Notes under the pieces: generated by a model
Told to the model about the DNA's origin: nothing
The model's input: the letters and a program-made list of their open reading frames with translations, nothing else
Database searches by the model: none
In this document: piece after piece, positions 18,571-26,822 of the stretch
Layout of the letters: each line of letters starts with the position of its first letter
Position numbering within the stretch: the first letter of the stretch is position 1
Source: Clostridiales bacterium
GTDB lineage: Bacteria; Bacillota; Clostridia; Oscillospirales; Oscillospiraceae
NCBI GenBank assembly: GCA_029265405.1
Contig: JAJUJI010000003.1
Location: forward strand, 124,001 to 188,000
Length of the DNA stretch: 64,000 nucleotides
Direction: 5' to 3'
Made by a program: the position numbers and the translations under genes

Positions 18571-18678
18571 GGCTGCCGGGCGATATTACGCGGATTTTAC
18601 ATTCCCCTCTTCCGGATTTAACAATCTCCGCCTATACTGGAGTTGAAAACATAACATACGGGCGGGGATGCTTTGGAT

Positions 18679-20424
18679 ATGGACGTTTCCGATAAGCTAG
18701 GGCGGGAATTTCTGGACGTCATGGAGAACAGGCTTATAACGACGGTGTTCCAGCCCATAGTTTCGCTGCGCGACGGCTCGGTTTTCGGCTACGAGGCGCT
18801 CAGCCGTGGGCCGGAAGACAGCCCCCTGCGCAGCCCGGCGGCGCTTTTCGACTGCGCCAAGAGGTTCAACATGCTCTGGGAGCTGGAATGGCTCTGCCGT
18901 GTCACGGCCATAGAAACCGTTTTGAAGGTGAAGCTCCAGAGCAAGATATTTCTGAATGTCAACCCCAAAATAATGCACGACCCGAAATTCAGGCAGGGCT
19001 TCACGCGCGAATATCTCGGCAAATACCGGCTCGACCCGGAAAGAATAGTATTCGAGATAACGGAAAAGGGCGTCATCGGCGACTTTCAGGATTTCATAAA
19101 GACTGTGGAGAACTATAAGGAGCAGAATTTCAAGATAGCCATAGACGACGCGGGGGCGGGCTACTCCGGCCTGAACATGATATCCGACATAAACCCGCAT
19201 TTCATAAAGCTGGACATGCACCTGATAAGGGACATAGACAAGGACTTCACAAGGCAGTCGCTCGTGAGGTCCTTTACGGAGTTTGCCTCACTTACAAACA
19301 CCCGCCTCATCGCCGAGGGCATAGAAACGAAAGGCGAGCTTGCAAAGCTCATAGACATAGGCGTGCATTACGGCCAGGGCTACTACATAGCCAGGCCGGA
19401 GGCGGCCATAGCCCCCATAAGCCCCGAGGTCCTGCAGACCATCAACGACGCCAATTTCAAGCGCAACCATCTGGCCGTCAGAAAATTCGGCGAACTGTAC
19501 GTGAGCAACATAACGGCCTCGCAGCCGGCCTTCAGCCCCGCCATGAACACCATGCAGATCTACGAGTACCTGCAGAAGGACCGCTCGCTTCCGGGCGTCT
19601 GCGTGGTTGAGGACGGGGAGGTGCGGGGCGTTGTGACCAGAGACGAGCTTTACAAGCGCCTGTCCGGCCAGTACGGCTACACGCTCTTTTCAAAAAAGCC
19701 CGTCTCCGCCGTCATGAGCACAAGCTTTTTACAGGTTGACGCCAGCGAGAGCATAGAGAGCGTATCAAAAAAGGCCATGGCAAGGGGCTATGAAAACCTG
19801 TACGACTTCATCACCGTCACACGGGACGGGAAGTACCTCGGCATCGTCACCGTAAAGGACCTGCTTGAAAAGTCCTTCCAGGCGGAGCTATACAACGCCA
19901 TACACTTGAATCCCCTCTCCCGCCTGCCCGGCAACGTGCTGATAGAGAGCGAGCTTGAAAAGTGCATAGACTGCCCCTACGAGTACACGGTGCTGTACTT
20001 CGACATAAACAATTTCAAGGCCTACAACGACGTTTACGGCTTTGAAAACGGCGACAGGCTGCTCAAGTGCTTCACCCAGATATTAAAAAGCCTCATCCCG
20101 CAGGACAGGTTTTTCCTAGGCCACATAGGCGGCGATGATTTCATGGCCATAGTGTCCGACATGGACGTGGAGCGGCTCTGCTCGTCCGTCATAAGCGAAT
20201 TCGACGAGGCGGCGCGGCTCTTCTACAGCATAAACGATCTGGACAGGGGCTACATTATAGCCAGGAACAGGCACGGGATAGAGGAGGTTTTTCCCATGCT
20301 GTCTCTCTCCATCGCCGCCGTTTCCAACCGGGGCTTCAATTCGGTGACAGCCCTGTCCGAGCGCATGGCCGAGCTGAAAAAGACCTGCAAGCAGAGGCCG
20401 GGCAGCAACTACATACTGGGCTAG
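18679..20424 (+). CDS. EAL - CBS pair - GGDEF cyclic-di-GMP protein
   Basis: A 581-residue cytoplasmic signalling protein. The EAL phosphodiesterase domain (about 15-255) keeps its key residues: YEALSRG, NVNP, FEITEKG, DDAGAGYSGL, FIKLD, EGIE and GYYIARP. Two CBS motifs follow (about 270-410), which usually bind adenine nucleotides. The C-terminal GGDEF domain (about 425-580) reads GGDDF, a conservative variant, with no inhibitory RxxD site visible. It probably degrades c-di-GMP under nucleotide control. The ATG at 18679 is chosen; a TTG at 18673 in the same frame is an alternative, both behind GGGGA. Confidence 0.93.
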   Translation: MDVSDKLGREFLDVMENRLITTVFQPIVSLRDGSVFGYEALSRGPEDSPLRSPAALFDCAKRFNMLWELEWLCRVTAIETVLKVKLQSKIFLNVNPKIMHDPKFRQGFTREYLGKYRLDPERIVFEITEKGVIGDFQDFIKTVENYKEQNFKIAIDDAGAGYSGLNMISDINPHFIKLDMHLIRDIDKDFTRQSLVRSFTEFASLTNTRLIAEGIETKGELAKLIDIGVHYGQGYYIARPEAAIAPISPEVLQTINDANFKRNHLAVRKFGELYVSNITASQPAFSPAMNTMQIYEYLQKDRSLPGVCVVEDGEVRGVVTRDELYKRLSGQYGYTLFSKKPVSAVMSTSFLQVDASESIESVSKKAMARGYENLYDFITVTRDGKYLGIVTVKDLLEKSFQAELYNAIHLNPLSRLPGNVLIESELEKCIDCPYEYTVLYFDINNFKAYNDVYGFENGDRLLKCFTQILKSLIPQDRFFLGHIGGDDFMAIVSDMDVERLCSSVISEFDEAARLFYSINDLDRGYIIARNRHGIEEVFPMLSLSIAAVSNRGFNSVTALSERMAELKKTCKQRPGSNYILG

Positions 20425-20489: not shown

Positions 20490-22550
20490 TTATTCGGCTT
20501 CGGCGCTGAGCTTGGCTTCCTCGATGACCTTGGCCTGGTTGGCGGCGGGCATCTCCTCGTAGCGCACGAATTTGAAGCTGAAGGAGCCTCTGCTCTGGGT
20601 CATGGAGCGCAGGTCTATGGCGTAGCTGCCCATCTCGGCCATGGGCACCTCGGCCTCTATCTCCTGCCTTCCGGCCCCTATGGGGTTCATGCCCATGACC
20701 CTGCCGCGGCGCTTGTTCAGGTCGCCTATTATGTCGCCCATGTAGCTGTCAGGCACGGTGACCTTCAGAAGGCCTATGGGCTCGAGTATAACGGGCGAGG
20801 CCTGGGGCAGCCCGTTTTTGTAGGCGAGGCTCGCCGCGGTCTTAAAGGCCATTTCCGAGGAGTCCACCTCGTGGTAGGAGCCGTCCACCAGCGTAGCCTT
20901 CAGGTACACCACCGGATAGCCGGCCAGCACGCCCTTCTGTATGCTCTCGCGCAGACCCTTTTCAACGGCGGGGAAATACTGCTTGGGCACGCTGCCGCCG
21001 AAAATGTTTTCCGCGAAGGTCAGATCCTCAGTTTCGCCCGGCTCGAACTCTATCCACACGTCGCCGTACTGCCCGTGGCCGCCGGACTGCTTCTTGTGCC
21101 GGCCCTGCACCTTGACCTTCTTGCGTATCTTCTCCCTGTACGGCACCTTCACGGGGCTCAGCTCCACCTCGACGCCGAACTTGGTCTTGAGCTTGGAGCA
21201 GAGCACATCCAGATGTATGTCGCCGGCGCCAGAGAGCACGAGCTGGTGCGTTTCGGCATTGTTTTCCATGGTAAAGCCGGGGTCCTCCTCGGCAAGGCGC
21301 ATCAGGCCGTTGGCTATCTTGTCCTCCTGGCCCTTGACCTTGGGAGATACGGCCATGGAATAGCAGGGCTCGTCGAAGGCTATCCTTTCGGCGCTGACTA
21401 CGGCCTTGGGGTCGCAGAGCGTGTCGCCCGTCTTGCTGTCGGCAAGCTTTGAAACGGCGCCTATGTCGCCGCAGGGTATGGTCTTGACCTCTATGCTCTT
21501 TTTGCCCAGCATGTTGTATATGTGGCCCAGCTTTTCCGTTCCGCCCGTGCGGCTGTTGGTGAGCACCATGTCCGCGTCCGCCTTTCCGCGCAGCACCTTG
21601 AAGAAGCTGAACTTCCCGTACTGGTCGGAGAGGGTCTTGTATATGAACAGGCAGGTCTGGCCGCCCTCGTCGCAGGCTATCTCGACCGTTTCGCCCGCCG
21701 CGTTCACGGCCAGCTCGGCCGGCCTCTCCGCCGGGGAGGGGAGCAGGTTCACTATCGCGTTAAGCAGCAGCTCCGTGCCGACGCCAAGATAGCCGCTTCC
21801 GCAAAGCACGGGGACGAGCGAAGCCTCCCTGACGCCCTTTTTCAGGCCGGCCAGTATCTCCTCCTCCGTAAAGGGCTCGCCCTCGAAGTATTTTTCCATC
21901 ATTTCCTCGGAGGTCTCGGCCACGGCCTCGGCAAGCGCGCCGTGCATCTGCTCAAGCGCGCCCTTCATGGACTCGGGCACGGGCGCCTCCACGGTCTTGT
22001 TCTTTTCGGTTTTGTAGGCCTTTCCGAGTATCACGTCGACTACGCCGGCCACCTTGCCGCCCTCGTAGAAGGGCAGGGCTATGGGGCAGACGGTATGGCC
22101 GAATTTTTCGCGGAGAGCGTTATACGTGGCCGTAAAATCTCCGTTTTCCTCGTCGAGCTTTGAAACGTAAAAGACCTTGGGGAGCTTCTTTTCCTCAAGA
22201 TAGTCCCAGGCCTTTTCGGTGCCGACGGATAGGCCGCCCTTGGCGGCGCAGACGATTATGCCCGCGTCGGCCACCCTGACGGCCTGCCTGACCTCGCCGG
22301 CGAAATCGAAATAGCCCGGAGTGTCGATTATATTGATCTTGACGCCCTTGTACTGGGCGAAAACCGTGGCGGCCGAAATGCTTATCCCGCGCTTTATCTC
22401 CTCCGGGTCGTAGTCGGACACGGTGTTGCCGCTGCCGACGTTGCCCAGCCGGTCGGTGCCGCCCGTAAGATACAATATGCTCTCCGTCAGGCTGGTTTTC
22501 CCCGTCCCGCCGTGGCCGAGCAGGCATATATTCCGGATCTTCTCTGTCAT
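20490..22550 (-). CDS. EF-G-like translational GTPase paralogue
   Basis: A 686-residue protein with the five-domain EF-G layout, probably a ribosome-associated paralogue and not the main EF-G. The P-loop is GHGGTGKT (12-19) instead of AHIDAGKT, switch I keeps RGISI, and the G3 motif is DTPGYFDF (77-83), so the catalytic His of DTPGH is Tyr80. The G4 motif NKxD reads SKLD (130-133). Domain IV shows GGHGQYGDVWIEFEP and domain V ends with FSFKFVRYEEMP. This variant set is typical of the clostridial EF-G-like group. The promoter is at 22606-22634, with AAGGAGAG upstream of the ATG. The real fusA/rpsLG cluster is not in this window. Confidence 0.9.
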   Translation of the reverse strand: MTEKIRNICLLGHGGTGKTSLTESILYLTGGTDRLGNVGSGNTVSDYDPEEIKRGISISAATVFAQYKGVKINIIDTPGYFDFAGEVRQAVRVADAGIIVCAAKGGLSVGTEKAWDYLEEKKLPKVFYVSKLDEENGDFTATYNALREKFGHTVCPIALPFYEGGKVAGVVDVILGKAYKTEKNKTVEAPVPESMKGALEQMHGALAEAVAETSEEMMEKYFEGEPFTEEEILAGLKKGVREASLVPVLCGSGYLGVGTELLLNAIVNLLPSPAERPAELAVNAAGETVEIACDEGGQTCLFIYKTLSDQYGKFSFFKVLRGKADADMVLTNSRTGGTEKLGHIYNMLGKKSIEVKTIPCGDIGAVSKLADSKTGDTLCDPKAVVSAERIAFDEPCYSMAVSPKVKGQEDKIANGLMRLAEEDPGFTMENNAETHQLVLSGAGDIHLDVLCSKLKTKFGVEVELSPVKVPYREKIRKKVKVQGRHKKQSGGHGQYGDVWIEFEPGETEDLTFAENIFGGSVPKQYFPAVEKGLRESIQKGVLAGYPVVYLKATLVDGSYHEVDSSEMAFKTAASLAYKNGLPQASPVILEPIGLLKVTVPDSYMGDIIGDLNKRRGRVMGMNPIGAGRQEIEAEVPMAEMGSYAIDLRSMTQSRGSFSFKFVRYEEMPAANQAKVIEEAKLSAEAE

Positions 22551-22664: not shown

Positions 22665-24956
22665 TCAGCCGTCCGACGCCGCGTCCGACAAAAGCACGGA
22701 GGCCGCGGCCCACAGCGCCATGAAAAGCGTCACGTTTCCGACGGAGGCCGACTGGAAGGCGGAGCGCGCCAGCGCGAAGAAAACCAGCAGGAGGCCAAGC
22801 GCGGAGCCGGCCGCCGACATGATGAGCAGCCTGCTCGCCCCGGCTACGAAGCGCCTTGCCGTCTGGGCCAGCTCAACGAAGCGGCCCAGGGAGTCCCTGC
22901 TCATGACAGCGGCGGGGCCCGCGTCCCCCGCTCCCGTCTCGCCCTCCGAGGACAGGGCGAACCTTTCCTCATAGGCCGGGAAGCTGAAGCTCTCCGTGGG
23001 TATCTTGAACTTGGTCTTGAGCATGGCGGGGCTTATGTTGAAGTCCCTCACGGCAAACAGAGGGGTCAGGCCGGAGCGGAGCAGCGACACCAGCGAGTTT
23101 TGCACCATGTCCACCGGGGTATAATTTATTATGAACACGCCCGCCAGCTCCCCGCCTATGGCCGAATACACGGCCCCCGAAACGTCCAGGTTAGGCGGCA
23201 CGCGGATGCCCATGAGGTTCATGAAGGCCGGAGTGCCCACAAGGACATTATTGCCCTTAATCATCGCGCCTATGCCGCCTCCCTCATAGAAGGAGAAATC
23301 CTCGACCCTGTAAATCGGGCAGGCGTATTCGCGCAGCAGCTCCCCGAAGATTCGCGACAGGATGGAGCCGGAGGCTACAATAAGGCTGCCGGTATAGGAG
23401 ATGACCGTTTCCACCGGCGCGCTCGAGAGGACTTTAACGCCGTTGAGCGAAACGGTGCTTTCCGGAAACAGATCCGAATCCCTGATGACAAGGCCCGAGG
23501 CTCCGCCCGCCTCCTTAGCCCCGGCCCAGCCGGCTATGGCCGCCCCGCCGTCTGCCAGACGCCGGGCCGCCAGCGAAAAGGGACGGGCGTAGGCCAGCGC
23601 GGCGGTCATGGAGGCCGCCGCGGCCGACATCGCCGCAAGGCAGTGGAAATATGTCCTGCCGGAATTCACGGCGTCGGCAACCAGCGCGAAAAGCAGCGAC
23701 GCGGCAATCAGCATAGGCGCCAGCAGGGCGTAGGCCCTGTCGGCGGCGCTCGGGGCGCCGCATTTTGATATGAAGCCCGCGGTCGGCCCCAGCCGCCTGC
23801 GCAGCACGGTCTCCCCGTCCTCCCCGCGCTCCTCGGCGGAAACCACGGTCGGCAGCCTTGCCGCCTTGAGTGTCTTGAGGGTGGCGCGCCAGGCCGTCCT
23901 CTTCATTTTTTCACCCAGCATATTGAAAAGCAGGGTGCAGGCGGCCGCCGCGCAGTAGGGCTGCCCCGTCCAGTCGGCCCCGCCTATTATGATGGTTACG
24001 GCGTCGAGCACCGAGGCCAGGCAGGCGAAGGCCGAAAGGCTGGCCGGGCTGAGCCTGCCCCTGAATGCGTCCTCCACACCCCGCACCAGCGCGTCCACGC
24101 CCAAAAGCATTGCCGCCAGCAGCAGCATAAGAAAGGAAGCCGCCTGCCTGAGCCTGTCGTCCGGCAAAAGCAGCGGCACGCGGATTCCCGCATGCCCGGC
24201 AAGGAGCAGCAGCGCCATTGCGGCGCAGAGGACGAATACCATAGCCGTCCTCCTGCGGAGGGATGGGATGCCGGAGGCGTATGTATTCAGGGCCTCGCCC
24301 ACGCTCAGCTCCGGACCCCGCGCGGGCTTTTTTTCGTCCTCGGCCCCGCCCTTTCCCGCATTCCTCTCCGCCCTTTGCCGCCGGGCCTCGCGCCCTGCCC
24401 TGCGCCGCTCGTCTTTTCCAAGAGCCCTTTCTATCTCGGCCTTAAGCTCGGCGCTGCGCGCCGCGCTTAAGGAGGCGTACAGCTCCCCCTCCTCTCCGGC
24501 GGCACGCGGCATGGAGGCCGGCTCCGGCTCGGGCTCCGGCTCGGGCTCCGGCTCCGGCTCGGGCTCCGGCTCCGGCTCCGGCTCGGGCTCCGGCTCGGCA
24601 AGCAAGTCGCCGTCCGGGGGGGCCGCCTCCTCCGACTTTACGGGCGGCTCCGGCGCGCCGTCTGCGGGGTCTGCATGCCCGGCTGTCTCCGGCTCCCTGG
24701 GCCTGCCGAGGACGGCCGCGATGTCCTCCAGCCTAGCCTCCGGCTCAGGCTCCTCAGGCCGGCCCTCCTCATTCAGCTCGTTCTCCACGCTGAGCCGCAT
24801 TTCCCTTATGATGGCCTCGGCCTGCCTTTCAAGCTCCTCCTTGGACAGCCTGCGCTCGTTGCGTATGAAAGCCTCGCTCTTATACTCGGCAAGTATGGCT
24901 TCCAGAGCATATTCGCGCCCTTCTTCGCTATTAACCTGTTCGAGCAAGTCCGTCAT
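22665..24956 (-). CDS. Large membrane protein with degenerate P-type-ATPase-like core and Glu-Pro repeat
   Basis: A 763-residue protein. Residues 1-~235 are cytoplasmic, charged, and contain (EP)13 at 121-146. Several membrane helices follow (about 238-258, 270-290, 305-340, 408-430, 438-458) and a pair near the C-terminus. The region from about 480 resembles P-type ATPase P/N domains: LVIRDSDLFPESTVSL stands where DKTGTLT is expected, EGGGIGAMIKGNNVLVGTPAF looks like the N-domain nucleotide fold, and LRSGLTPLFAVRD stands where the GDGxND region begins. The phosphorylated Asp motif and the GDGxND motif are absent, so it cannot be a normal pump. Function unknown. The gene lies just downstream of rlmB in the same direction. 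Confidence 0.7.
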   Translation of the reverse strand: MTDLLEQVNSEEGREYALEAILAEYKSEAFIRNERRLSKEELERQAEAIIREMRLSVENELNEEGRPEEPEPEARLEDIAAVLGRPREPETAGHADPADGAPEPPVKSEEAAPPDGDLLAEPEPEPEPEPEPEPEPEPEPEPEPEPASMPRAAGEEGELYASLSAARSAELKAEIERALGKDERRRAGREARRQRAERNAGKGGAEDEKKPARGPELSVGEALNTYASGIPSLRRRTAMVFVLCAAMALLLLAGHAGIRVPLLLPDDRLRQAASFLMLLLAAMLLGVDALVRGVEDAFRGRLSPASLSAFACLASVLDAVTIIIGGADWTGQPYCAAAACTLLFNMLGEKMKRTAWRATLKTLKAARLPTVVSAEERGEDGETVLRRRLGPTAGFISKCGAPSAADRAYALLAPMLIAASLLFALVADAVNSGRTYFHCLAAMSAAAASMTAALAYARPFSLAARRLADGGAAIAGWAGAKEAGGASGLVIRDSDLFPESTVSLNGVKVLSSAPVETVISYTGSLIVASGSILSRIFGELLREYACPIYRVEDFSFYEGGGIGAMIKGNNVLVGTPAFMNLMGIRVPPNLDVSGAVYSAIGGELAGVFIINYTPVDMVQNSLVSLLRSGLTPLFAVRDFNISPAMLKTKFKIPTESFSFPAYEERFALSSEGETGAGDAGPAAVMSRDSLGRFVELAQTARRFVAGASRLLIMSAAGSALGLLLVFFALARSAFQSASVGNVTLFMALWAAASVLLSDAASDG
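24519..24596. repeat. Hexanucleotide repeat coding (Glu-Pro)13
   Basis: Thirteen near-perfect copies of CGGCTC / GGGCTC in a row inside the degenerate P-type-ATPase-like gene. Codon alternation (CCG/CCC for Pro) breaks perfect identity but the tract could still gain or lose units by slippage; any such change keeps the frame. Confidence 0.85.
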
Positions 24957-25014: not shown

Positions 25015-25776
25015 TCACAGTCTTTGTCTTACGGCTTCGTACAGCGCCACCGCGGCGGCGGCCGAAGCGTTCAGCGAGGCTATTTTGCCGCGCATAGGAA
25101 TGGATATGAGGAAGTCGCAGGCCTCCCTCGTCAGCCGCGAAAGACCCCGCCCCTCGGAGCCTATGACTATGGCCGCCCCGTCCCTGAAATCGGCCTGCCA
25201 GAGGCTTTTTCCGCCCTCTGCCGCCGTTCCGTATATCCATACGCCCCGGCTTTTGAGCTTTTCCAGCGCCGAGGCGAGATTCGCCACCCTCGCCACCGGC
25301 AGATGCTCCACCGCCCCGGCCGAGGTCTTTTCCACCACTGCCGTGACGCCGGCGCTCCTGTGCCTGGGTATGACGACCCCGTGGGCGCCGGCCGCCTCCG
25401 CCGTCCTGATTATGGCTCCAAGGTTATGCGGGTCGGTTATCTCGTCGCATATGACTATCAGGGGCTTCTCGCCCGCAGCCTCCGCCGCCCCGAGAATGTC
25501 CTCCACCGAGGCGTATTCCTTCGCCGCGGCCACGGCTATTACTCCCTGGTGCGAACGCGTCAGGCTCATCATGTCCAGCTTGCGCCTGTCCACCTCGGAA
25601 ACGGCCGCGCCCGCCGCCCTGGCCCGGGCGGCAATGAAGCCCAGGGCCTTGTCCGCCTCGCCTCTGGCTATATACACCTTGTCCAGCGGCCTGCCGGCCT
25701 TGAGGGCCTCCATGACCGCGTTTTTGCCTTCTATGCGCCCCTCGTCGGGCGCTTCGTCCCGCCTGTCCCCGTTCAT
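25015..25776 (-). CDS. rlmB: 23S rRNA (guanosine-2'-O)-methyltransferase, TrmH/SpoU family
   Basis: Methylates the ribose of a 23S rRNA guanosine (G2251 in E. coli numbering). An N-terminal substrate-binding domain (IEGKNAVMEALKAGRPLDKVYIARG) is followed by the knotted SPOUT domain with DEITDPHNLGAIIRTAEAAGAHGVVIP, IVIGSEGRGLSRL and ISIPMRGKIASLNASAAAAVALYEAVR, the three TrmH motifs. The ATG at 25776 follows AAAGGA at ideal spacing and gives 253 residues; an ATG five codons upstream is possible. Its neighbour in Firmicutes is often cysS/mrnC, not seen here. Confidence 0.93.
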   Translation of the reverse strand: MNGDRRDEAPDEGRIEGKNAVMEALKAGRPLDKVYIARGEADKALGFIAARARAAGAAVSEVDRRKLDMMSLTRSHQGVIAVAAAKEYASVEDILGAAEAAGEKPLIVICDEITDPHNLGAIIRTAEAAGAHGVVIPRHRSAGVTAVVEKTSAGAVEHLPVARVANLASALEKLKSRGVWIYGTAAEGGKSLWQADFRDGAAIVIGSEGRGLSRLTREACDFLISIPMRGKIASLNASAAAAVALYEAVRQRL

Positions 25777-25883
25777 AAAAATCCTTTGCATTCCGTATTT
25801 TGAAATTCACAGTGCATTCTAACACATACTACATGCCAAAAAAAGCATTTTTTCAATAAGGGCGGCAAAAAGCCGCCTTTTAA

Positions 25884-25967: not shown

Positions 25968-26822
25968 ATGTCATTTTTCAATAAGTTCAACAGGCTGGTG
26001 GACCGGTTCTGCTTCAGGCATCCGGGCTTCGGCATCCGGAATATGATGCTGTTCATTATTATAGGAAACGCCGCGGTATACCTGTTTTCGCTCATGGACA
26101 CCACCGGCAGCTTCCTGTACTACCTGTATTTTTCGCCCGCCCTGGTGCTGAGCGGCCAGCTCTGGCGGCTCGTGACCTTCGTCTTCGTGCCGGAGGCCAC
26201 GAATCCCCTGTTTGTGGCCCTGTTCCTGTACTTCTACTATTTCATAGGCTCGGCGCTGGAGCGCCAGTGGGGGGCGGGCAAGTTTACGCTCTACTACCTG
26301 TCCGGCATGGCGCTGACCGTCGTTTACGGCTTCATAGCGGGAGCCGTCTCGGGCTTTTCCGCTCAGCTCTACATCGGGGCAAGCTATATAAACCTATCCA
26401 TGTTCTTCGCCTTCGCCACCTATTTCCCGGACACCACCATGCTGCTGTTTTTCATCATCCCCGTAAAGATAAAGTGGCTGGCCTACATCAACGCGGCCTT
26501 CTTTATCGTATCCATGGTCATGGGCAGAACCCTGCTGCCTCTGGTGGGCATAGTCAACTACCTGCTCTTTTGCGGGGATCTGCTGCTGCCTTCCATTAAA
26601 ATTTTGAAATACCGGAGCTCCGCAAACGTTGTCAATTTCAAAAGGGCGGCGAGGCAGGCGAAACGGCGGCAGGAGAGGGCTCCCTATACCAGAAAGTGCG
26701 CCGTCTGCGGCAGGACGGACGCGGAGCACCCGGAGCTGGAATTCCGCTACTGCTCCAAATGCGAGGGCTACCACTGCTTCTGCCAGGACCATATAAACAG
26801 CCACGTCCATTTCAAGGAATAG
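25968..26822 (+). CDS. Rhomboid-fold membrane protein lacking the catalytic dyad, with C-terminal zinc-finger-like tail
   Basis: A 284-residue polytopic membrane protein. Six hydrophobic segments between about 25 and 215 follow the rhomboid order: the W-R-L-V-T-F-V-F segment (about 66-73), the loop LERQWGAGKFTLYYLSG and a GAS-Y-x-x-L helix followed by YFPDTTMLLFFIIPVKIKWLAY. In active rhomboids the GxSG serine motif and a His in the last helix form the dyad; here GASG reads GASY and the last helix (VNYLLFCGDLLL) has no His, so proteolysis is unlikely. The tail CAVCGRTDAEHPELEFRYCSKC plus nearby Cys/His could bind zinc. Function unknown. Confidence 0.8.
   Translation: MSFFNKFNRLVDRFCFRHPGFGIRNMMLFIIIGNAAVYLFSLMDTTGSFLYYLYFSPALVLSGQLWRLVTFVFVPEATNPLFVALFLYFYYFIGSALERQWGAGKFTLYYLSGMALTVVYGFIAGAVSGFSAQLYIGASYINLSMFFAFATYFPDTTMLLFFIIPVKIKWLAYINAAFFIVSMVMGRTLLPLVGIVNYLLFCGDLLLPSIKILKYRSSANVVNFKRAARQAKRRQERAPYTRKCAVCGRTDAEHPELEFRYCSKCEGYHCFCQDHINSHVHFKE

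Follow-up and report, generated by a model that had tools for sequence, protein, structure and literature searches.

The window (the whole stretch of DNA that was analysed, 64,000 nucleotides from a Clostridiales bacterium) contains on its minus strand a gene for a membrane protein that resembles the P1B-type ATPases in its predicted fold and lacks their catalytic motifs. The frame begins with an ATG, contains zero internal stops between positions 22665 and 24956 and encodes 763 aa, in agreement with an earlier reading made from the letters alone (the sequence-only reading), which had described it as intact over 2.3 kb. In its own genome the gene is present as a single copy, the sole other match being weak and directed to the EP stretch. 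The gene, its parts and its two flanking genes are as follows.

22665..24956, minus strand: pseudo-P1B-ATPase gene, 763 aa (intact ORF, family alignment)
24879..24911, minus strand: N-terminal tail motif YALEAILAEYK, residues 16–26, a local form of [FY]S[LVI][ED][DE]ILAE[FYVI]
24519..24596, minus strand: (EP)13 in the low-complexity linker, residues 121–146, not conserved as such
22668..24314, minus strand: membrane core, residues 215–763, with eight membrane helices and the P/N head (AlphaFold2)
23757..23861, minus strand: actuator domain remnant, residues 366–400, a beta hairpin without TGES (predicted secondary structure)
23577..23582, minus strand: PF of M4, residues 459–460, at the place of the CPC metal site (family alignment)
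23463..23480, minus strand: DSDLFP, residues 493–498, at the place of DKTGT (hhalign)
23121..23420, minus strand: N-domain-like part, residues 513–612, with GGGIG and VLVGTPAFMNLMGIR, without HP (VIA-align, conservation)
23037..23051, minus strand: VRDFN, residues 636–640, at the place of TGDN (hhalign)
22899..23036, minus strand: shortened stretch at the expected site of motif III and GDGxND (28-residue hhalign gap)
25015..25791, minus strand: rlmB, 23S rRNA Gm2251 methyltransferase, directly upstream (TIGR00186 above cut-off)
20490..22550, minus strand: EF-G paralogue, the next gene downstream (NF009381 above cut-off)

The sequence-only reading had described a long N-terminus with (EP)13 and three strings following the order of a P-type ATPase. 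Exactly 13 EP repeats are found at residues 121–146, and the three strings are all present in that order. Relatives carry other low-complexity linkers at the (EP)13 place, and the repeat itself is a local feature.

Relatives were found at 23 loci in named genomes of Clostridia, Clostridiales, Oscillospiraceae and Ruminococcaceae, including Sporobacter termitidis. Excluding L023, which is cut by its contig, 22 of them were aligned with the window protein (alignment A1), to which they are 28–44% identical. The family profile matched 190 of the 200 genomes of the taxonomic family to which the window belongs (127 of the 129 good ones) and 261 of the 297 genomes of the order, which we take to be GTDB Oscillospirales; a few of the weakest of these matches may be true pumps. 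In genomes of the class outside this order, matches were weak (best E 1.5e-11), and the six that were read are true P1B-ATPases with DKTGT. For conservation analyses, 102 profile hits were reduced to 93 that lack DKTGT and combined with the window protein to give 94 rows; L024, L025, L035 and duplicate sequences were dropped, and no row of the order was dropped for having DKTGT. One further strong family hit (L098) was not part of the length comparison and is probably the same gene as L061.

The family has no name in Pfam or NCBIfam. A Pfam search of the window protein gave no match even at E 10, and across 23 family rows it gave only stray matches and no model for the family. NCBIfam matches of the window protein fell mostly on the EP-rich linker; among the A1 rows, matches at E 0.1 or better were obtained to TIGR01525 in 7 of 23 and to PRK10671 in 11 of 23, the best at about 1e-6. 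A phmmer search of the window protein against the PDB yielded no match better than E 0.35, and most of these weak matches fell on low-complexity sequence; the 23-row profile reached CopB (3skx) at E 0.07 only. Because these searches were weak or empty, the relationship had to be sought by profile–profile and fold comparison, both of which the sequence-only reading had named as checks on its suggestion of a P-type ATPase origin.

In hhalign comparison with nine true P1B-ATPases, the core of the window protein and its 22 relatives was matched with a probability of 98.3% over 486 columns, and the 94 family rows with one of 99.8%. Controls with the P1B alignment reversed gave 0.3% (first family core alignment) and 0.9% (94 rows), so the resemblance, at 98.3% against 0.3%, goes beyond chance. 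An AlphaFold2 model of residues 215–763, built with 23 sequences (pLDDT 88.4, pTM 0.83), led to the same group: copper P1B-ATPases rank top in a Foldseek search of the PDB (4bbj, E 3.3e-16, TM 0.56), and VIA-align superposed the model on 3rfu_A with a Z of 23.8 over 484 residues. The rmsd of that whole-chain superposition is high (9.4), which suggests that in the model the domain arrangement differs from that of P1B pumps. The N domain alone aligned with the CopA N domain (2voy_J) at Z 15.3 and an rmsd of 2.1 over 109 residues. The model contains eight long membrane-type helices or helix pairs, of which the second is kinked and the fourth of M1–M6 is broken, as in P1B pumps. The predicted overall fold and helix order (MA, MB, M1–M6, N and P domains) are thus those of a P1B-ATPase, where an unrelated fold would have contradicted the claim. 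What the protein shares with CopA-type P1B-ATPases (TIGR01525/PRK10671; 3rfu, 4bbj) is the set of eight membrane helices with a kinked MB and the M4 proline, an N domain with a glycine turn, and the P-domain order. Unlike them, it has no actuator domain, DKTGT, TGES, TGD, GDGxND, CPC or SEHP, no HMA domain was found in it, and a disordered tail is placed in front.

The losses were assessed position by position, using P1B motif definitions given in sections of PMC10170112. A string search of the whole window protein found no DKTGT, TGE, TGD, GDG or HP. The sequence-only reading had regarded both the phosphorylation motif and the hinge motif as gone; this holds for the hinge, with no TGD or GDG string anywhere in the protein, and for the phosphorylation motif in part, since its Asp is kept in this protein and only the remainder of DKTGT is lost. 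In the hhalign alignment, D493 stands opposite the phospho-Asp and the motif reads DSDLFP; the place of TGD reads VRD, that of SEHP reads SGSI, and a gap of 28 residues lies opposite VGDGINDAPAL...GGGTDIAV. The actuator domain, which in a true pump comprises well over 100 residues (as judged from the sequence of an rlmB-linked CopA, see below), is represented by a hairpin of about 40 residues without TGE(S); the window stretch 363–404 corresponds to 41–55 residues in the 94 rows. The CPx/SPC metal site of M4 is likewise missing. The window protein reads RPF there, and among the 94 rows the M4 proline 459 is P in 80, position 459 is C in 2, and no C occurs at 458 or 460.

As to whether orthologues constantly lack DKTGT, a point the sequence-only reading had singled out, the motif is absent from the window protein, from the 94 family rows and from 14 further members found through rlmB, i.e. 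from every member of the order that was read. Six profile hits that have it (L084–L089) are P1B pumps, all from genomes outside the order. In L074 and L075, the string DKTGS stands at the very start of reading frames that the edge of the locus truncates, and is remote from the P site. With its actuator domain and hinge lost, as well as the motifs for catalysis and for the metal site, the protein should, as judged from its sequence, be incapable of the P-type pump cycle, and we hold it to be nearly certain that this is a dead pump.

Several residues of the P/N head are retained. Position 493 is D in 76 of the 94 rows and position 495 in 85, F497 is F in 88 and P498 is P in 90; D638 is kept in 93, and G561 and G574 in all 94 each. 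The position of the nucleophile is therefore not fixed, and the second Asp, the FP and the motif II Asp are nearly fixed. The high retention of D495 and D638 is what could be cited for a residual HAD-type chemistry, in which DxDxFP would restore the DxD of HAD phosphatases and the head would hydrolyse a small phosphate ester. Only DxD-like residues are left of the HAD phosphatase set (DxD, motif II S/T, motif III K/R, motif IV acids), however: 18 of the 94 rows lack a D at the position of the first Asp, which is the nucleophile, the motif II Thr is lost and the stretch for motifs III and IV is shortened. We regard such an activity as very improbable.

Purifying selection, on which the sequence-only reading had made its conserved pseudo-pump depend, was estimated from the core. 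The five closest pairs gave dN/dS values (Nei–Gojobori) of 0.035, 0.033, 0.021, 0.043 and 0.085, at a pS of 0.56–0.75, so that dS is high and partly saturated in these pairs; the next three pairs are fully saturated. The linker evolves faster than the core. Catalytic residues are thus lost across the clade under purifying selection, as expected of a pseudo-enzyme, and together with the P1B-like predicted fold and the absence of DKTGT from the order members read, the low dN/dS sustains the idea of a conserved pseudo-pump. The loss of catalytic motifs might also mark a pump gene decaying towards loss, but the frame is intact, dN/dS is about 0.02–0.085 and the gene is kept across the order, which leaves this explanation with practically no probability.

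In relative entropy over the 94 weighted rows, two segments stand highest, P1 at 1.94 bits and N at 1.79 bits; the membrane helices range from 1.25 to 1.67 bits and the actuator remnant is lowest (1.09 bits). The second half of the P domain (1.37 bits) does not exceed the membrane helices, apart from D638 and its neighbours. As the P1 and N segments are the most conserved, a working surface in the cytosolic head is mildly favoured, from sequence conservation, over a conserved ion path. The same figures bear on a reading in which the membrane part serves as a passive cation channel or facilitator freed from ATP control. In its favour, the protein retains the full set of eight helices together with the MB kink and the M4 proline. 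Against it, the CPC metal site has been lost, conservation in the membrane helices is below that of the P1 and N segments, and a channel would have no need of a conserved head. This possibility appears quite unlikely.

The genomic setting of the gene is highly conserved. In 57 of 58 loci of the order, rlmB lies directly upstream on the same strand, and in the 58th the contig ends there. Of these loci, 23 (close relatives) and 20 (distant relatives) were chosen by the protein and 15 by rlmB, with adjacency in 23/23, 20/20 and 14/15, respectively; because the third set was chosen by rlmB and not by the protein, the adjacency in it is not a selection artefact. The third set derives from 17 genomes of the order scored as lacking the gene, 15 of which have rlmB above the cut-off. 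With a broader profile, the next gene after rlmB is a family member in 14 of them; in the remaining one (L130), the contig ends inside the next ORF. An EF-G paralogue is found within 2.5 kb downstream in 22/23 close, 8/20 distant and 4/15 rlmB-chosen loci, some of which are cut by contig ends. Two other genes of the window were noted. At 25968–26822 (plus strand) lies a gene for a conserved 284-aa membrane protein with a Cys-rich C-terminal end and no Pfam or NCBIfam match, which is found near the locus in 18 of the 23 close loci (some cut). The gene at 18673–20424 (plus strand) encodes a protein with an EAL-like N-terminal and a GGDEF C-terminal part (NCBIfam) and adjoins a D-Ala-D-Ala carboxypeptidase-like gene.

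This setting could indicate a translation-linked membrane factor acting with RlmB and the EF-G paralogue, for instance one that recruits ribosomes or rRNA modification to the membrane, or one that senses an ion required by ribosomes. It is rlmB, directly upstream on the same strand in 57/58 loci, and the EF-G paralogue, downstream in 34/58, that speak for such a factor, yet the latter was found in only 8/20 distant and 4/15 rlmB-chosen loci (some cut), operon position alone suggests co-expression and not joint function, and the tails outside the family that share the N-terminal motif (see below) belong to envelope and not to translation proteins. We consider a translation-linked factor unlikely.

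The same gene order also bears on the suggestion of the sequence-only reading that the protein regulates an active pump, here taken as a regulatory subunit that would act on a P1B-ATPase in the same cell through mixed dimers or competition for a chaperone. Three P1B-ATPases above the TIGR01525 cut-off are encoded in the own genome, and the match of the model to P1B folds spans its whole length; in the loci read, however, the gene is linked to rlmB rather than to a gene for a pump, a Pfam search of the protein detects neither HMA nor any other domain, and nothing was found linking the three P1B-ATPases of the own genome to the pseudo-pump gene. This role is, in our view, improbable.

With respect to origin, a P1B tree of 25 pseudo-pump rows and 18 true P1B rows (two true rows were left out for lack of columns) places all pseudo-pump rows on one side of a 100/100 branch and hence is consistent, at the level of sequence, with one origin of the clade. 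In another order of the class, a CopA gene follows rlmB in 5 of the 14 genomes with rlmB over the cut-off, representing five genera; the rlmB regions of seven others of these 14 (L217–L223) gave no P1B match. These five CopAs (L144, L147 and L207–L209) resemble the pseudo-pump in their place after rlmB, with 12–29 bases separating the rlmB match from that of the pump, and in being P1B homologues. Unlike it, they have intact catalytic motifs: DKTGT is present in all five, and TGES, CPC, SEHP and GDGxND in four (L144 and L207–L209). The CopA of G476 is 53–60% identical to the other four. Among 74 rlmB loci of the class outside the order of the window (for which the 60-locus set includes five too short to tell), the rlmB–copA pair occurs in two, both from the same family.

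Family-profile scores of the five rlmB-linked CopAs (102–146 bits) overlap those of other CopAs, with 75–115 bits for seven unlinked ones of the same order and 122–141 bits for three pumps of the class chosen for their score; these scores are suggestive of ancestry and not decisive. The CopA of L144 (2.5e-33 with the family profile) had been tried as a missing link and was rejected: among nine other true P1B-ATPases, four score higher and five lower. In the RlmB tree, the best branch comprises 39 of the 42 rows of the order of the window and no other row. The P1B tree does not join the rlmB-linked CopAs to the pseudo-pump family, nor does the RlmB tree join their order to that of the window, and in the RlmB tree no well-supported branch opposes one origin. 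The pairing of rlmB with a P1B pump in the other order is possibly the ancestral arrangement.

A second characteristic of the family is the motif near the N-terminus, which reads YALEAILAEYK in the window protein and FSLEDILAEF or YSVDDILAEV elsewhere and is followed by the long low-complexity linker. In the 23 A1 rows, L18, I21, L22 and A29 are invariant and E19, E24 and K26 nearly so; with a loose pattern, the motif is found in 68 of the 94 family rows and not in the other 26. In a full-length model it forms an isolated low-confidence helix (residues 18–31), which neither supports nor excludes docking. A literature search of open-licence papers with 7-letter fragments of the motif found none.

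A degenerate DNA search of 13 genomes revealed two in which LspA ends in this peptide, and a search of the 297 genomes of the order added a third LspA as well as an ABC-2 permease and a sortase with the motif near the N-terminus (identities by Pfam). The LspAs with a C-terminal motif are from genomes G003, G004 and G014. At their loci (L229 1492–2472, minus strand; L233 1489–2364, minus strand; L292 1604–2557, plus strand), LspA carries a long low-complexity C-terminal extension ending in an F/Y-S/T-L-E-D-I-L/I-A-E-F peptide, as in the pseudo-pump tail. The ABC-2 type permease (L301 1224–2534, minus strand) has a disordered N-terminal tail that begins MSDKFSIDDILAEIGS, and the sortase-domain protein (L302 453–2492, minus strand) a low-complexity N-terminal tail with YTVDEILAEFDG.

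In the 297 genomes, the degenerate pattern gave 70 matches, many of them the family itself, against 7 for the backwards pattern, a control that is not codon-aware. Twenty unclear places were fetched. Two of them, L300 and L309, belong to the family, a third, L293, resembles a family N-terminus lying at the edge of a contig but gave no profile hit, and three are the tails of envelope membrane proteins described above (L292 LspA, L301 and L302). The remaining 14 fall within unremarkable proteins, among them EF-Ts (four places) and an F420-ligase-like protein (two places), one of each tested by Pfam, and appear chance-like. Other matches were left unread, e.g. those in G386, G356, G321, G446, G333 and G303 and the second in G225. 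A six-frame scan of 1.17 million residues of fetched loci hit 70 distinct places, of which 68 belong to the family and 2 to LspA; since the motif was the reason for fetching both LspA loci, this count reflects the specificity of the pattern and not the frequency of the motif in LspA. In a survey of LspA from 26 genomes of the order, G003 and G004, included as known cases, have the motif, and among the other 24 only G007 has it, in a weaker form. All five non-family cases were found by searching for the motif.

Taken as a whole, we propose that the gene encodes a P1B-derived pseudo-enzyme, a core gene product serving as a membrane scaffold or sensor with a docking tail, an explanation that we see as evenly balanced between being right and wrong. 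A copper-type P1B-ATPase would have become a pseudo-enzyme, probably in a single event no later than the base of the order, and would have been kept as a core gene. The analysis shows the descent, the predicted fold with its eight-helix body and N and P domains, the motif losses, the conservation, the linkage and the tail motif, whereas a ligand, a hub and the recruitment of enzymes are inferred. The body would no longer pump and would anchor the protein in the membrane, with the P/N head and the long disordered N-terminal tail predicted to face the cytosol. The conserved head probably serves to bind a ligand, which may be nucleotide-like, or a protein, and the tail may be a docking peptide for a cytosolic partner shared with the tails of LspA, the sortase and the ABC-2 permease. 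A hub recruited by the tail might then gather envelope machinery, or the state of a small molecule might be reported to that machinery. The scaffold or sensor role, which the sequence-only reading had also suggested, fits the evidence, and our confidence in it falls just short of even. We put forward only tentatively, and think it clearly more likely wrong than right, the specific form in which a core membrane scaffold, through a tail motif common to LspA, the sortase and the ABC-2 permease, works with a cytosolic hub that gathers envelope enzymes in Oscillospirales-type Clostridia. The rlmB/EF-G setting stands against an envelope role and points at translation instead.

No precedent for an order-wide bacterial pseudo-P-type ATPase was found in the open-licence literature searched. 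A parallel is an apicomplexan guanylyl cyclase with an appended P4-ATPase-like domain (PMC7858053). There too a P-type ATPase module is tied to a non-transport output, namely signalling; the module differs in its P4 class and its fusion to a cyclase, and its ATPase domain is reported to contain a conserved residue that is required, which implies that it is not a dead pump.

The order makes up much of the gut Clostridia, and the pseudo-pump gene is a near-universal, unnamed core gene of it and thereby a concrete target; the shared tail motif offers a direct bait for the partner. If the proposal is true, it would reveal a cytosolic hub not previously described as well as a pseudo-P-type ATPase spread across a bacterial order. 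P-type ATPases are defined by their phosphorylation cycle, and this deep, order-wide clade, in which the pump body persists after loss of the actuator domain, the phosphorylation motif and the hinge, shows that in bacteria the fold can be retained for a non-pumping use.
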